Below, one piece after another: positions 4,620 through 50,936 of a DNA stretch of 64,000 nucleotides. The notes beneath the pieces are model-generated. The model saw only the letters and a list, made by a program, of their open reading frames with translations, was not told where the DNA came from and did no database searches. The position numbers and the translations under genes were made by a program. Every line of letters begins with the position of its first letter. Within the stretch, counting starts at the first letter, position 1. This DNA comes from Pseudovibrio exalbescens (GTDB taxonomy: Bacteria; Pseudomonadota; Alphaproteobacteria; Rhizobiales; Stappiaceae), in assembly GCF_028737195.1 (NCBI RefSeq), contig NZ_JAQZAJ010000007.1, positions 124,001 through 188,000 of the forward strand. The letters run 5' to 3'.

Positions 4620-6680
4620 GTGAACTCACTGCTGCGATGGGCACTGCCCGCGCTTGTTTCCTCCTGTTTGGTGGCGCCGGGGGTGGCTCTGGCGCACCCG
4701 CACGTGTTTGTGCAGGCCAAATCCGAACTCGTGTTTGACGATGCGGGCTATCTGACGGCAATCAATCACAAATGGCTCTTTGATGACCTCTACACAGCCT
4801 TTGCCATTCAAGGGCTTGATGCCAATGGCGATGGCAAACTGGACCAGGATGAACTGAGCGAACTTGCTTCGGTCAATGTGCAGGGTCTGGAAGAGTTTGG
4901 TTACTTCACGTTTGGCGATGACACCAAGGTGGAGATGGACTTTGTGCAGCCGCATTCGGAATGGATGCGCATGCAAACAGAGGCCTTTGACACCTATTGG
5001 CTGATCTCCGAGGAAGAAAAGCGGGCGATTGCCGAAGACATTGCCGCCGGGCGCGATGTGCAGGTGCCGGACACGGTTTCCATGGTGGAGTTGAATTTCA
5101 CACTGCCCCTGAAAGAGCCCCTGTCCTCCGAAAACGTGCTGACGATTGATGTGTATGATCCGACATACTACGTCGACTACCAATGGGCGCCGGGCACTGC
5201 GGTGACACTGAAGAACGCTCCGGGCGCATGTGATGTGGAGCTGGTGCATCCACCTGAGCTGGACATGGCGGCGGCGGCCCAACTGGCTGCCATCGGCGCG
5301 GATGTGCGAAACGTTCCGCCGGAGCTGCGCAGCCTGACGGAAACGCTGGTGAACCAGGTGATCGTTACCTGTGGTGATGCCGCAGCGGCGGTGGCTGAAG
5401 CGCCAAAGACCGCGACCGAGCTGCTTGACGGACAGGAGGCGATCTCCTCCATGATGTCCGGCAGCCCTTCCGTTTCTCTCACCGAACTTGCAGCGGAGGC
5501 TGAGGCGGCCACGCCCACAGCCCCTTCCGAGGCCAACGTTGATGCGGCTGTAGCGGATGGCACAGCGCCGGGTGTCAATGGCCACGGCACTGGGTTGTGG
5601 TCACAGGCCATGGGGGCGATTGCCCATTGGCAGAACGTTTTTTATCGCGAGCTTACAAGCTACCTGCGTCAGTTCCGGTCTTCACCTGAGGCGGGCTTGT
5701 GGCTGATGCTGATCAGCTTTGCCTATGGCGTGTTCCATGCAGCAGGCCCCGGGCATGGCAAGGCCATCATCTCTTCTTATGTGGTGGCGGATGAGCAGAC
5801 GTTGAAGAAGGGCATCATCCTGTCGTTCCTTTCTTCCATGGCGCAGGCCGTTACCGCGATTGTGCTGGTGGGCGGCGCAGGTGTCGCCTTGAGCCTGACC
5901 AGTATCGCCATGACGCAAACCACCAGATGGTTCGAAGTTGGCTCATACGCGCTGGTGTTTGGTCTGGGCCTATGGATGGTGTGGACCCGCATCTTGCGCC
6001 CCTTGATCCCTGCGGATGTCCGCCAGGCCCTGACAGAGACGAGCTGCGGTTGCGGCCAGTTTGAAACCAAAGACTTCGACTACGAGGAATACCGCCGTAG
6101 CCATGCCAAGCCGGCGCAGGCCACCACGGCCACCAAGGAGCTGGAACTGGAAGGTGCGGAACAGTCTCATGCTGCCCCTGACCATGGGCACACCCATCAC
6201 CATGGGCAAGGCCATAGCCATGATCACAAGCCTCACAGTTGTGGGCATGAGCACCACCACCATGATCATCATCATGCACATCATCACCACGATCACGGTG
6301 ATGACTGTTGCGGCCATTCCCATGCGGCGGATCCTTCCGAGTTGAAAGACGTGAAGCTGAACATTTGGAGTGCCTGGTCCATTATCGTAGCCATCGGGCT
6401 GCGCCCATGCACCGGTGCCTTGATCGTGCTGGCCTTTGCGCTGTCACAAGGCATGATCTGGGCTGGTATTGCTTCCACGCTTGTAATGGGTGTGGGGACC
6501 GGCATTACCGTTGCTGTGATCGCCAGCCTCGCGGTACTTGCAAGAGATACGGCCTATCGGATCTGGGGCAGCTCTTCGCGTTCCGGCGCGGTGGTGCGAC
6601 GCAGTTTCGAGGTGGCTGGTTCGCTGTTTGTCTGCGGTATTGGCGGGGCATTGTTCTTTGCAAGCGTGGGGTGGTATTGA
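4620..6680 (+). CDS. DUF1007-NicO (RcnA-like) fused metal transporter
   Basis: This 686-residue protein fuses two families. Residues 1-25 are a signal sequence. Residues 25-210 are a DUF1007 periplasmic domain starting AHPHVFV and containing an EF-hand-like loop, DANGDGKLDQDE. After an Ala/Thr-rich linker, residues 345-686 are a NicO/RcnA nickel-cobalt exporter domain with the hallmark HAAGPGHGKAIISSY. A roughly 60-residue loop contains dozens of His plus Cys and Asp residues, typical of metal sensing or chelation in this family. The second half resumes with GLRPCTGALIVLAFALSQG. Start is GTG; GGGG lies about 10 bases upstream. The exported metal could be Ni, Co or Zn. A weak Zur-like site lies just upstream. 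Confidence 0.85.
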   Translation: MNSLLRWALPALVSSCLVAPGVALAHPHVFVQAKSELVFDDAGYLTAINHKWLFDDLYTAFAIQGLDANGDGKLDQDELSELASVNVQGLEEFGYFTFGDDTKVEMDFVQPHSEWMRMQTEAFDTYWLISEEEKRAIAEDIAAGRDVQVPDTVSMVELNFTLPLKEPLSSENVLTIDVYDPTYYVDYQWAPGTAVTLKNAPGACDVELVHPPELDMAAAAQLAAIGADVRNVPPELRSLTETLVNQVIVTCGDAAAAVAEAPKTATELLDGQEAISSMMSGSPSVSLTELAAEAEAATPTAPSEANVDAAVADGTAPGVNGHGTGLWSQAMGAIAHWQNVFYRELTSYLRQFRSSPEAGLWLMLISFAYGVFHAAGPGHGKAIISSYVVADEQTLKKGIILSFLSSMAQAVTAIVLVGGAGVALSLTSIAMTQTTRWFEVGSYALVFGLGLWMVWTRILRPLIPADVRQALTETSCGCGQFETKDFDYEEYRRSHAKPAQATTATKELELEGAEQSHAAPDHGHTHHHGQGHSHDHKPHSCGHEHHHHDHHHAHHHHDHGDDCCGHSHAADPSELKDVKLNIWSAWSIIVAIGLRPCTGALIVLAFALSQGMIWAGIASTLVMGVGTGITVAVIASLAVLARDTAYRIWGSSSRSGAVVRRSFEVAGSLFVCGIGGALFFASVGWY

Positions 6681-11933: not shown

Positions 11934-12680
11934 CTAGGTGATCCATCGCACATCTGCGGTAAGCATGTATCCTGAACCGTAAACGGTGCGAATGAGTGCG
12001 CCGGTGTCACTGCTGTTGAGTTTTTTTCGGATGCGGGAGATGCGGACGTCGATAGAGCGGTCCATGCTTTCATCGTTGCCGCCGTATTCCAGCAGTTGAT
12101 CCCGGGAAAGGACCCGGCGGGGAGCGGAGAGCAGCGCCTGCAGGAGAACGGACTCACCGGTGGAGAGAAAGCTCTCTTCGCCCTGCGGGGTGCGGAGCAG
12201 GTGGGAGTCTGGCTCAAACTGCCAGCCTGCAAATTGCGCCCGGCGTTTGCCAGCCTCCGTTTTGGGCGCGGTCGGGGTTGCGCGGCGCAGCAAGGACCGG
12301 GCTCTGGCGACAATCTCCCGTGGGTCGAAAGGCTTGCACACATAGTCATCTGCGCCGAGTTCCAGGCCTATGACGCGGTCAGACGCATGGGTGCGGGCAG
12401 ACAGGACGAGGATCGGGACAGAGGTCTTTTCGCGGATGCGCTCGATCAGCGCCATGCCATCAATATCGGGCAGACCCAGGTCAATGATGAGCATTGCCGG
12501 GGGGGTGTCCGCAATGGCGTTGTAAGCCTCATGCCCCGCATGGAAGATGGCCGTCTGGAACCCATAGGATTGCAAGGTGTCGCTGAGAAGGGCGCAAATC
12601 TCTACCTCGTCATCCACCAGGTAGACGAGCGGCTGGCCCCTTGAGAGCTGGCGGGTCTTTGCGGCGTCTTCGGCCATCAT
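11934..12680 (-). CDS. OmpR-family response regulator
   Basis: The protein has a receiver domain (residues 18-130), with acidic pocket DDE at 23-25, phospho-acceptor Asp67 in LIIDLGLPDIDG and the switch Lys in CKPFDPRE. A C-terminal winged-helix DNA-binding domain follows (about 145-245, with ESVLLQALLSAPRRVLSRDQL and SIDVRISRIRKKL). It is translationally coupled to the upstream sensor kinase by a 4-base overlap (ATGA, 12677-12680). The pair diverges from the CoA-ligase/Liv transporter operon, so it is a natural candidate regulator of that operon. Confidence 0.92.
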   Translation of the reverse strand: MMAEDAAKTRQLSRGQPLVYLVDDEVEICALLSDTLQSYGFQTAIFHAGHEAYNAIADTPPAMLIIDLGLPDIDGMALIERIREKTSVPILVLSARTHASDRVIGLELGADDYVCKPFDPREIVARARSLLRRATPTAPKTEAGKRRAQFAGWQFEPDSHLLRTPQGEESFLSTGESVLLQALLSAPRRVLSRDQLLEYGGNDESMDRSIDVRISRIRKKLNSSDTGALIRTVYGSGYMLTADVRWIT

Positions 12681-42195: not shown

Positions 42196-42826
42196 TTTCA
42201 GTCACTCTCTGCGCAAGCAGAGTCAGGTCTATCGTTCGGGTCGCGTACTCCAATGACGCGGCTCGTTCGAAGCCCAGGCACTTGTGCCACGGATCTGTCG
42301 AATGAAGAGCGTTCCTCTACGCTGTTGTAGGGACACCCTGATACGGAGTTGCCTCCGACCTCTTAACGCTTAGCCAACTATAACGCATTGCGATATGTCG
42401 GCCTGCAGGAACTTTTTCTCAGTTCCCTCTCTGGTTTTATGCTTCATTAAATATAGCGCATTCAGTTTTCTCAAGAAAACGTGAGCAGCGTGTGACGCTA
42501 CATTATAAGGGACAGTAGTCCTGTCCTATCCGAAGCTGGCGAAAGATGCCAGATTTCTTAATCTAGAGCAAGCAAGAAGTTCTGCCCAAAGGTTGCAGTT
42601 CTTTCAATGTTTTTGCCGAATTTGTCGAATTCGCATTGGCGGCTAAAGATAATCGCAACAATCTTTCTAAAGGCTGCTCACGCGTGCGAAGAACTTTCTT
42701 TTCTGCGTCCGCTCAAGTGATTGTAACGGGCCTTTGATTTCCTGTTGAGCGGGAACTTCGTCACAGTCCAGTTGCGAGCGGGAAAGATCTTCCTGCGATC
42801 CGACAAGATTAACTAGGAGAACCCCC
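42196..42826. other. Intergenic region between gltB and the bufferin operon
   Basis: This 630-base region holds the divergent upstream sequences of gltB (minus) and bufA (plus). No convincing gene is seen. Small inverted repeats are visible: CTCTGC-GCAA-GCAGAG at 42207-42222 in the gltB leader, and GGACAG-TAGTC-CTGTCC near 42511-42527 mid-region. The long gltB leader suggests post-transcriptional or nitrogen-responsive control, but no known riboswitch class was recognised. Confidence 0.5.
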
Positions 42827-43126
42827 ATGAGCAATAAAGGTGTATCCGCAGCAGTTCTGGCTGGCGCGGTTGCTGCTGCCGTCATTTCCGTAAACGCGCC
42901 GACTGCGGCGTATGCTCAGGCAAAAGAAAAGTGCTACGGCGTTTCTTTGGCTGGCGAAAACGACTGTAAGGCCGGTGCTGGTACCACCTGCGCAGGGACA
43001 TCCACCGTTGACTACCAAGGCAATGCATGGACGCTGGTTCCAAAGGGCACTTGCGAAACCATGGAACTGCCGGGCGGCCGCCAGGGGTCACTGACCGAGT
43101 TGGATCGCGATAATCCAGAGGCATAG
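42827..43126 (+). CDS. bufA: Bufferin-type precursor peptide (DUF2282, BufA1-like)
   Basis: This 99-residue peptide has a Sec signal (residues 1-30, ending TAAYA). A mature region of about 69 residues carries four Cys at 36, 47, 55 and 76 in the DUF2282 frame [18 protein letters not shown] and TTCAGTS, then [14 protein letters not shown]. That family was recently shown to be the precursor of bufferins, copper-chelating peptides whose Cys are modified to heterocycles by a DUF692 enzyme. AGGAGA lies 6 bases before the ATG. It heads a four-gene operon. Family membership is clear; the modification in this organism is inferred. Confidence 0.9.
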
Positions 43127-43204
43127 TCACTAGCGATGCTTCGAGGCGGTTGTCGTGATGATGGGCGGCTGCCTCCGGAGCCTCTTTGAACACCGGAGGG
43201 TCTC

Positions 43205-44089
43205 ATGTCTCAGAGCGAAAGAATCAGCGCGACAGTTCCTGCGGGCGCGGGGCTCGGCTTGAAAGCCGACCACTATGCCCAGATTCTGGAGACGAAACCG
43301 GCCCTGGGTTTCTTTGAGGTCCATGCCGAGAACTACATGGGGGCTGGCGGACCTCCGCACGCCTATCTGGAGGCCATCCGTGCGCGCTACCCGATCTCGC
43401 TTCACGGTGTTGGTCTGTCCATTGGCGGCATGCAGCCCCTCAACAAAGACCATTTGCAACGGGTGAAGCAGGTTCACGACCGTTATCAGCCGGGCTTGTT
43501 CAGTGAGCATCTGGCTTGGTCTTCGCATCAGCCAGCCTATTACAATGACTTGTTGCCGCTGCCTTACACGGAAGAGACCTTTCAGCGTGTTGCTGACCAC
43601 ATTGATGAGGTACAGCAGGTGCTGGGCCGACAAATGCTGCTGGAAAATCCATCCACCTATGTCCTTTTTGAAGACAGCGTCATAGAGGAAACCGACTTCC
43701 TGATGCGCGTGGTCGACAAGACCGGCTGCGGTTTGCTGCTTGATGTAAACAATGTTTTTGTGTCGGCCACCAACTCGGGCCGATCCGCTTCGGAGTATCT
43801 GGCGTCGTTTCCCGTTGAACATGTGGGCGAAATACATCTGGGCGGTCACGCCCCGGATGAAGATGAGCAAGGCCATCCTCTGCTCATAGATGCACATGAC
43901 CGCGAAGTTGCCGATCCGGTTTGGCATCTCTACCGTGCTGTGATCGACCGCGTTGGTGCCGTGCCGACCTTGATCGAGTGGGATGCCGAGGTGCCCGCTT
44001 GGGAAGTGCTTTATGCCGAAGCCCAACGGGCTCAAGCCATTTTGACCCAGCGCCAGAAGCAGGGAGCGTCCTATGCCCAGGTCAGCTGA
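43205..44089 (+). CDS. bufB: Multinuclear non-haem iron oxidase (DUF692, BufB-like)
   Basis: This 294-residue TIM-barrel enzyme belongs to the MNIO family, which modifies Cys residues of precursor peptides using two or three iron atoms and O2. Metal-ligand blocks are intact: [70 protein letters not shown] and [10 protein letters not shown]. It follows bufA by 78 bases, in which the start has GGAGGGTCTC. It overlaps the next gene by 17 bases, which argues for coupled translation with its partner. Expected reaction: oxidation of precursor Cys to thiooxazole-type rings. Confidence 0.93.
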
Positions 44090-44846
44090 GCAGGTGCTTG
44101 CGTCCTTCTCCGGAAATTTGACGCGTTCAGACTTCTTGGTGCCAACCGGCCTTGTTGGACGGGACGGTGAAACGTCGCAACGCCGGTTTGAGGTTTACAG
44201 AAACAACGTCTTGAGCAGCCTGAGTGCCGCGCTTGCCGCTAATTTCCCCGCGATTCAACGTTTGCTAGGTGAGGAATACTTCAAGGCACTTGCGGTGGAG
44301 TTTGTTCGGCAATCGCCGCCCACCCAGCCTGTTCTTTCTGAGTATGGAGCAGACTTTCCAGAGTTCGTGCGGAGTTTCCCGCCTTTGGCTGACTACCCCT
44401 ATCTTGGTGATGTTGCCTCTTTGGAGTGGGTATGGCTGAAGGCCTACCATGGCGCAGAACTGGCGGTGACCGCTGCCGAGCAGTTGAAAGAGGTGGCAGG
44501 TGAACGCCTCAATGAAGTGAGATTTAAGGTGCATCCAACCGCGTCCTCGGTGATCTCACAGTTTCCAATCTATGAAATCTTCAAGGTGAACCGTGATGGG
44601 GCTGCTGCCACCCCGGTGGCGGGCGGCGGCCAAGGCGTGCTTGTGGTGCGCCCCGGCATGCATGTTGTTGTTGAGCAGGTTTCACCTGAGACCCTCTTTC
44701 TTTTTGAGCAGTTGAAACAAGGCGTTTCCCTTGGTGCAGCCGCAGAAGCCGGTCTCTCACAGTTTCCGGGGTTTGATCTCGGAAGTTGTCTGTCGTCACT
44801 ACTTCAGACGGGCGCGCTCGCTCAGGTCCTGATGGCTGATACTTAA
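44073..44846 (+). CDS. bufC: DUF2063 partner protein (BufC-like, RRE-type)
   Basis: This 257-residue protein starts with the DUF2063 domain (about 1-90: [51 protein letters not shown]). A C-terminal mixed domain follows (about 110-257, [17 protein letters not shown] ... [23 protein letters not shown]). In bufferin and related MNIO systems this protein is the partner that helps bind the precursor to the oxidase. It overlaps bufB by 17 bases. The older annotation as DNA-binding is not supported by motifs I can see. Confidence 0.9.
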
Positions 44847-44868
44847 CGCATAATCGCAGGAGGGCATT

Positions 44869-45453
44869 ATGTCTGGAATCATCTCACCCTTGGTGAGCAT
44901 CTACACGGGTATTTTTGGTGCGATTGAGCGCGCTGCAGGCGATTGGTTCCTTGGGCTTTTGGCGCGTGTGGTGTTTGCCAGTGTGCTGTTTGGCTACTTC
45001 TGGAACTCTGCACTGACCAAGATCAGTGATGGTCTTCTCGGGTTTCTCACTCCCACAACGGGGGCTTATGCGCAGATCCTGCCTCAAATCACCGAAGCAG
45101 CCGGATATGATGTGAGCCAGATTGCTTTCTTTCCATATGGTCTGATCGTCCTCATGGGAACGTGGGCCGAGTTTGTCCTGCCAGTGCTGGTGGTGATCGG
45201 GCTCTTCACGCGCGGAGCCAGTCTGGCCATGATCGGGTTCCTTATTGTGATGACCTATGTGGACATCACGGGCCATCATGTGGACATGGGCACCATTGGC
45301 GGTTTCTTTGACAACGCGCCAAACAGCGTGATTGCCGATCAGCGTGTCATGTGGGGCTTCCTGCTGCTTTATCTCGTCATTCGCGGCCCGGGTTTGTTGT
45401 CTGTTGATGGCCTACTGGGCAAACGGACGCAACCTACTGAAAAACTGGCCTAA
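44869..45453 (+). CDS. DoxX-family membrane protein of the bufferin operon
   Basis: This 194-residue membrane protein has about four helices and DoxX motifs (ARVVFASVLFGYFWNSALTKI, ELVLP-like AEFVLPVLVVIGLFTRGASLA, DITGHHVDMGTIGG). DoxX proteins are common last members of MNIO/DUF2282 operons and are thought to provide redox or membrane functions; that role is not established. The start follows AGGAGGGC 6 bases upstream and lies 22 bases after bufC, so it is probably co-transcribed. Confidence 0.85.
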   Translation: MSGIISPLVSIYTGIFGAIERAAGDWFLGLLARVVFASVLFGYFWNSALTKISDGLLGFLTPTTGAYAQILPQITEAAGYDVSQIAFFPYGLIVLMGTWAEFVLPVLVVIGLFTRGASLAMIGFLIVMTYVDITGHHVDMGTIGGFFDNAPNSVIADQRVMWGFLLLYLVIRGPGLLSVDGLLGKRTQPTEKLA

Positions 45454-49694: not shown

Positions 49695-49877
49695 AAGGCG
49701 CACTTTGGGCTGGTGAACGTGAAGCGCAGCCTAGCGGGGTTGCCCGGCCTTAACAATCACGTTTTGTGGAAAAGCCATTGATGTGCCAAAGGTTTCACGG
49801 TAGTGGCCGGGTGCATAGCGTGCGTCTCAGCGGCGGCGAGGAACCCCGCGGAATTAGGGGTTCTCCTTAGGTTCTAA

Positions 49878-49912: not shown

Positions 49913-49995
49913 GTGCAATCAGCTTGGTTGCGCACCGCCCTCCTTGGGCGTTTCCTCCCTAGACTTAAGGCCGCCGTTGTTGGCGGCCTTTTTTT
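49913..49995 (+). ncRNA. mmgR: Small RNA, MmgR-like (Rfam suhB/mmgR family)
   Basis: A transcript of about 83 bases is predicted with three stems. Stem one is GTGC...GCAC at the 5' end (49913-49935) with AATC/GGTT continuing it. Stem two is CGCCC-TCCTT-GGGCG (49936-49950). The open stretch TTTCCTCCCTAGACTTAA offers an anti-ribosome-site CCTCC. Stem three is the terminator GGCCGCC-GTTGTT-GGCGGCC followed by seven T (49969-49995). Layout, size and the CCTCCCTAGACTT block fit MmgR, an Hfq-binding sRNA of rhizobia that limits polyhydroxybutyrate storage. Identification rests on recalled consensus and needs a covariance search. Confidence 0.72.
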
Positions 49996-49997
49996 GT

Positions 49998-50936
49998 CTA
50001 CTCCGCAGCCAGTGGATGGGCACCGAGTTCCCCGGCGTCGAGCCGGGTCAGTTCTCGAACGAACAAGCCAAGACTGCGACGAACCGCGGAAAAATGCGGT
50101 TTTGGGGTGAGCGTTTTTTCGTCCATGTACAGGCCTCGGTTGATCTCGATTTGCAGTGCATGAACGTTGCGGTCCGGACGGCCATAATGTTCAGTAATGA
50201 AGCCGCCTGCATAGGGTAGGTTGCGGCTGACGGAAAAGCCCATGGTTTCCAGGATTTCCGTGGCGCGCTCCGTGATCGCTGGATCACAACTGGACCCAAA
50301 CCGATCTCCGAGAATGAAGTCGGTCTTGACCATGTTGCCGTTGGCATGAGTTGTGGAAGGCATGGAGTGACAGTCAATGAGTATGGCGGCACCATAGAGC
50401 TGGCGCACGCGAGCAAGGGTGCTGCGTACAGCCATGTGATAGGGGCGATAGAGCGTCTCAATACGCTCCATGCCCTCTTCCATGGGAATGCGGTGCCGAT
50501 AGATTTCCTTGTTGTCGTTGACAATGCGCGCGATGGTGCCCAAGCCGCCAGCTACGCGCAGTGAGCGCGTGTTGACGTAGCTTGGAAGCTTGCCCTCGAA
50601 CATCTTGGGATCGAGCTCGTAAGGCTCCCGATTCACATCAAGGTAAACCCGCGGAAAATTAGCAGCGATGAATGGCGCGCCAAGGCTGACGGCGTCCTTG
50701 TAGAGATGATCCACAAAGGCATCTTCCGAACTGCGAATTTCACGCTGGTCAAGGCGAGAAGAATTAACAAAGTCAACGCGGTAGTTGCGCCCCGAGTGGG
50801 GCGAATTGAACACAAAAGGAACCTTGGGTTCCATTGCGTTCTCAATAGTGAAAGGAGGTACGAAGGCGTGGGCGTTGCCCGTATCAGCGTAGCCCTGAAC
50901 GAGGCGCATATGGTGGTCTTCGAAAATCTCTCCCAA
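49998..50936 (-). CDS. N-formylglutamate amidohydrolase family protein
   Basis: This 312-residue hydrolase releases formate from N-formylglutamate, the last step of one histidine-degradation route. Characteristic blocks are FVFNSPHSGRNY (metal His), EDAFVDHLY, INREPYELDP-like VNREPYELDPKMF, ILIDCHSMPS and NLPYAGGFITEHYGRP, ending with LQIEINRGLYMDE. The TTG at 50936 has AAGGAG 8 bases upstream; an ATG at 50909 is a shorter alternative. It is separated from cpdR by a divergent gap; adjacency of these two genes is conserved in Hyphomicrobiales. No other hut genes are in the window. Confidence 0.88.
   Translation of the reverse strand: MGEIFEDHHMRLVQGYADTGNAHAFVPPFTIENAMEPKVPFVFNSPHSGRNYRVDFVNSSRLDQREIRSSEDAFVDHLYKDAVSLGAPFIAANFPRVYLDVNREPYELDPKMFEGKLPSYVNTRSLRVAGGLGTIARIVNDNKEIYRHRIPMEEGMERIETLYRPYHMAVRSTLARVRQLYGAAILIDCHSMPSTTHANGNMVKTDFILGDRFGSSCDPAITERATEILETMGFSVSRNLPYAGGFITEHYGRPDRNVHALQIEINRGLYMDEKTLTPKPHFSAVRRSLGLFVRELTRLDAGELGAHPLAAE

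Follow-up and report, generated by a model that had tools for sequence, protein, structure and literature searches.

A complete Buf1 bufferin operon of Pseudovibrio exalbescens shares a three-half-site promoter element with msrP

The window analysed here, a 64,000-nucleotide stretch of the Pseudovibrio exalbescens genome, contains a unit of four genes, all of them intact, full-length and located on the forward strand. The first gene, bufA (42827–43126; 99 aa), encodes a Buf1 (DUF2282) bufferin precursor (Pfam DUF2282, E = 1e-25). It is followed by bufB (43205–44089; 294 aa), encoding an MNIO bufferin maturase (Pfam MbnB_TglH_ChrH, E = 3e-107; NCBIfam MNIO_BufB, NF050167, 392 bits against a cut-off of 310); bufC (44073–44846; 257 aa), encoding the DUF2063 partner of the maturase (PF09836, E = 1e-23); and bufD (44869–45453; 194 aa), encoding a DoxX-family membrane protein with several hydrophobic segments. 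The DoxX match is barely above the threshold (PF07681, 24.7 versus 23.6 bits); such matches were found in 39 of the 57 relatives' loci with bufB. The genes bufB and bufC overlap by 17 bases (44073–44089). The composition of this operon, including the overlap, agrees with that given in an earlier note on this DNA. For the metal-ligand motifs of the maturase, which the note had described as intact, an alignment of 58 sequences shows 31 H/D/E/N/R/C/Y positions conserved to at least 97%.

The precursor contains cysteines at positions 36, 47, 55, and 76, as claimed earlier, and exactly four cysteines are present in the bufA products of 78 of 80 relatives. It begins with a Sec-type signal sequence, as judged by eye. 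Cleavage after AYA (residue 30), also placed by eye and without a predictor, fits a mature peptide of 69 residues, the approximate length proposed before. The AlphaFold model of the precursor (mean pLDDT 63.8) is too weak for inspecting the disulphide.

The following features of the Buf1 type, whose core cluster was defined in PMC12452194, were identified at this locus: a DUF2282 precursor with four conserved cysteines; a BufB-family maturase; a DUF2063 partner; the A-B-C gene order; and a DoxX protein. Other MNIO systems were rejected. Namely, the BufA2 model of Buf2 bufferins scored 22.9 bits versus a cut-off of 60, and the precursor has four cysteines, not six or twelve; no EGKCG motif of the Oxazolin type occurs in its 99 residues; and the MbnB equivalog of methanobactin synthesis reached 57.7 bits versus a cut-off of 325. 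The HvfB/HvfC models also scored below their cut-offs. On this basis, the locus is classed as a complete bufferin operon of the Buf1 type; within this described family it is an ordinary case.

The genome of P. exalbescens encodes one MNIO protein and one DUF2282 protein. The closest named relatives are Pseudovibrio, Roseibium, Labrenzia, and Pannonibacter, and DUF2282 is present in 47 of 61 related genomes. One genus of the family lacks it in all four sampled genomes. Among the relatives retrieved, most have gltB divergently upstream of the operon; in many of the wider loci, a threonyl-tRNA-synthetase-like gene, recognised by eye, takes this place. Since the gltB-adjacent position is conserved across the family, the operon appears to be old and vertically inherited, and horizontal acquisition is not favoured. 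An origin from plasmids was rejected as well, the plasmid matches being partial and only 60–80% identical.

No copper-specific genes were found among the ORFs scanned in the window, as the earlier note had stated. The sole metal-transport gene seen there encodes a NicO-type nickel/cobalt transporter fused to DUF1007 (4620–6680, forward strand). Elsewhere in the genome, a copper P1B ATPase gene adjoins that of CueR, which scored above its cut-off (copA-cueR, C21:182585–184847), and two further copper-type ATPases are above the cut-off.

Footprinting upstream of bufA revealed a conserved block amid diverged sequence, here GTAACGGGCCTTTGATTTCCTGTTGA (42723–42748). The window contains this block once, against an expectation of zero from shuffles, and the genome likewise contains it once when up to three mismatches are allowed. 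It includes a three-half-site element, TAAC-N6-TTGA-N7-TTGA (42724–42748, forward strand), which is presumably a regulator site. Its general form is T(C/A)AC-N6-(G/T)T(G/T)A-N7-(G/T)T(G/T)A, in which the (G/T)T(G/T)A half-site was loosened after the msrP sites described below were known. When 30 related bufA promoters were compared with these half-sites, 25 of them showed gaps of 6 and 7 bases, a count in which related genomes are not independent samples. Only one of 71 other gap pairs tested on the bufA and msrP promoters gave a match, and that a single one. A -10-like hexamer, CACAGT (42762–42767, forward strand), is located 13 bases past the last half-site. Of 26 bufA sites, 12 have the pattern (T/C)ANNNT at this distance, against 0–2 at other offsets; the hexamer was picked post hoc and is a candidate, not a mapped promoter.

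In 80 further loci, the dyad TCAC-N6-GTGA occurs upstream of bufA at about 130 times its density in the rest of the same loci; other dyad gaps gave enrichments of 0- to 10-fold. Most of these sites are centred 80–120 bases before the bufA start codon. Rhodobacteraceae also have a dyad with this N6 gap. The bufA promoters of this family often carry two tandem dyads, and GTGA-N11-GTGA is enriched in them, which suggests that more than one dimer may be bound. Nine other bufA-like matches in the P. exalbescens genome were dismissed, as they do not rise above the level of the reversed control; the two that scored on the matrix described below lie inside genes or on the wrong side. An Rfam scan detected no RNA element near the operon. 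Further along the window, an Rfam match to the suhB/mmgR sRNA was found at 49930–50004 (forward strand, 64.5 bits). A weaker three-half-site-like match (score 15.4) at 49757, about 170 bases upstream of it, is probably due to chance.

The dyad scan of 14 Rhodobacteraceae genomes returned a site before msrP in one Loktanella, and the dyad precedes many of the msrP genes fetched from 50 genomes. In P. exalbescens, msrP, coding for the periplasmic methionine-sulfoxide reductase, is located outside the window (C20:101806–102786; MsrP model, 419.7 bits versus 207). The element with fixed gaps of 6 and 7 bases precedes msrP in 14 of 22 family members, including P. exalbescens. Here, the site reads TCAC-TCGAGG-TTTA-CTTGAGT-GTGA, with one deviating half-site (TTTA), 78 bases before the start codon. 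At msrP, the -10-like hexamer comes 14 bases past the last half-site. Because the looser half-site form was chosen after the msrP sites had been seen, a matrix provides the fairer test of this sharing. The matrix was trained solely on the relatives' bufA sites, with the P. exalbescens bufA site left out. It recovered the three-half-site element before msrP in most Stappiaceae, P. exalbescens included, with p ≤ 0.002 in 16 of 22 msrP promoters. No score as high as those of the msrP sites occurred in a background scan of 253 kb, both strands counted. In one genome of the genus Pseudovibrio, DUF2282 is absent and the msrP element is still present. The promoter element shared by bufA and msrP suggests that the two may be co-induced when metals or oxidants stress the envelope. 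With its four frames intact, and with residues and promoter maintained throughout the family, the bufferin operon is extremely unlikely to be a silent relic.

The four-gene bufferin unit of Caulobacter is sigmaF-dependent (PMC3511200). For P. exalbescens, control by sigmaF was rejected because NrsF was not found in the genome and a pattern scan detected no sigmaF-type site (GTAACC-N16-CGAA) upstream of bufA. Sites of this type are common where NrsF is present: among ten genomes in which NrsF matched strongly, nine have GTAAC-N15/16-CGAA near bufA, one mismatch allowed. The P. exalbescens genome yielded just six Sigma70_r2 matches, including one typical ECF gene followed by a ChrR-like anti-sigma gene. 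This RpoE-ChrR type pair, together with the similarity of GTAAC-N16-TTGA in the conserved block to the sigmaF site, might indicate that the block is a promoter for an alternative sigma factor and not an activator site. We regard this as quite improbable, given the absence of NrsF, the presence of three half-sites with helical spacing and dyad symmetry, and the position of the -10-like hexamer further downstream. Moreover, in most of the nine genomes with both NrsF and a sigmaF-type site, the TCAC-N6-GTG dyad is kept as a separate feature upstream of that site.

An activator site is the reading of the block that we prefer. No recurring regulator gene was found among the neighbours of the operon in 80 loci. 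The sole OmpR-type regulator gene in the window (11934–12680) scored below the cut-off for heavy-metal regulators (113.5 versus 279.2). Our best guess is a regulator of the OmpR family, because the core geometry of the element equals that of the CusR/HprR box of E. coli; this geometry is what hints at both the type of regulator and the direction of control.

By analogy with the characterised relatives, the following mode of action can be proposed. In the cytoplasm, BufB together with BufC would convert Cys47 and Cys55 into thiooxazoles by oxidation. The modified precursor would then be exported by Sec and its signal peptide removed, a disulphide would form between Cys36 and Cys76, and mature BufA of about 69 residues would hold excess periplasmic copper, with BufD as a putative inner-membrane accessory. 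These steps are modelled on the product known for the family, in which the two central cysteines are converted to thiooxazoles, the outer cysteines form a disulphide, and copper is chelated (PMC12452194; PMC13097082). The three half-sites, adjacent to the -10-like hexamer, would be bound by an activator that drives both the bufferin operon and msrP, with transcription not depending on sigmaF; a CusR/HprR-type response regulator of the OmpR family is the most likely candidate. Taken as a whole, a Buf1 operon for a copper-holding peptide, controlled by a non-sigmaF activator shared with msrP, is in our opinion the likely reading of this locus.

The operon may also be a bufferin operon whose main task is not copper but gold, silver, chromate, cadmium, or oxidant envelope stress. 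The sigmaF-controlled genes of Caulobacter respond to chromate and cadmium, relatives in Legionella and Cupriavidus respond to gold, and the element common to msrP points to oxidant stress. Copper binding and protection are, however, the best-supported functions of the bufferin family, and we consider a main role other than copper rather unlikely.

The operon alone is one more among thousands of known bufferins. The shared element outweighs it, as it connects copper trapping by a peptide with the repair of oxidised methionines in the periplasm of lineages that lack the known regulator. Full-text literature searches retrieved neither a description of the box itself nor a link between bufferins and msrP outside sigmaF. 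The element offers a concrete lead on the physiological role of the operon, and its 25-base site could serve as bait for the missing regulator. Bufferin and MsrP are most simply seen as a conserved periplasmic regulon whose control lies with sigmaF in certain lineages and with a different regulator, possibly an OmpR-family one, in others. We lean, with some reserve, towards a general form of this idea: in Alphaproteobacteria without sigmaF/NrsF, a single conserved regulator, possibly similar to CusR/HprR and encoded away from its targets, would control a small bufferin and MsrP periplasmic stress regulon via the three-half-site element, the pair being kept while the regulator differs by lineage.

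The closest known counterpart of the operon is the Buf1 system of Caulobacter vibrioides, CC3254–CC3257 (CCNA_03363–03366). Its families, DUF2282, DUF692, DUF2063, and DoxX (PMC3511200), occur in P. exalbescens in the same order, as the earlier note had recognised, and both precursors are of the Sec-exported type with four cysteines. This parallel is one of genes; the chemistry and copper role are taken from relatives. Copper induces the Caulobacter bufferin genes, and mutation of sigF renders the cells sensitive to copper (PMC8224329). Bufferins and msrPQ belong there to one sigmaF regulon, and bufferin and msrP are also the pair of targets of the Pseudovibrio element. The control differs: the Caulobacter operon is under sigmaF/NrsF, whereas P. 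exalbescens lacks NrsF, has another cis element, and shows no msrQ ORF of at least 120 aa within about 1 kb after msrP. In E. coli, msrPQ is copper-induced through CusSR at the box CATTACAAAATTGTAATG (PMC9302797). The Pseudovibrio element differs from this box in its half-sites, in the added third half-site, and in having no linked regulator gene. The AC-N6-GT dyad geometry is common to both systems, with the E. coli core TTAC-N6-GTAA corresponding to TCAC-N6-GTGA, but the GT is not kept in P. exalbescens itself, where the right half-sites of the dyads are TTGA (bufA) and TTTA (msrP). The Pseudovibrio element, like the CusR/HprR box before hiuH-msrPQ with its copper and oxidant control, precedes msrP.
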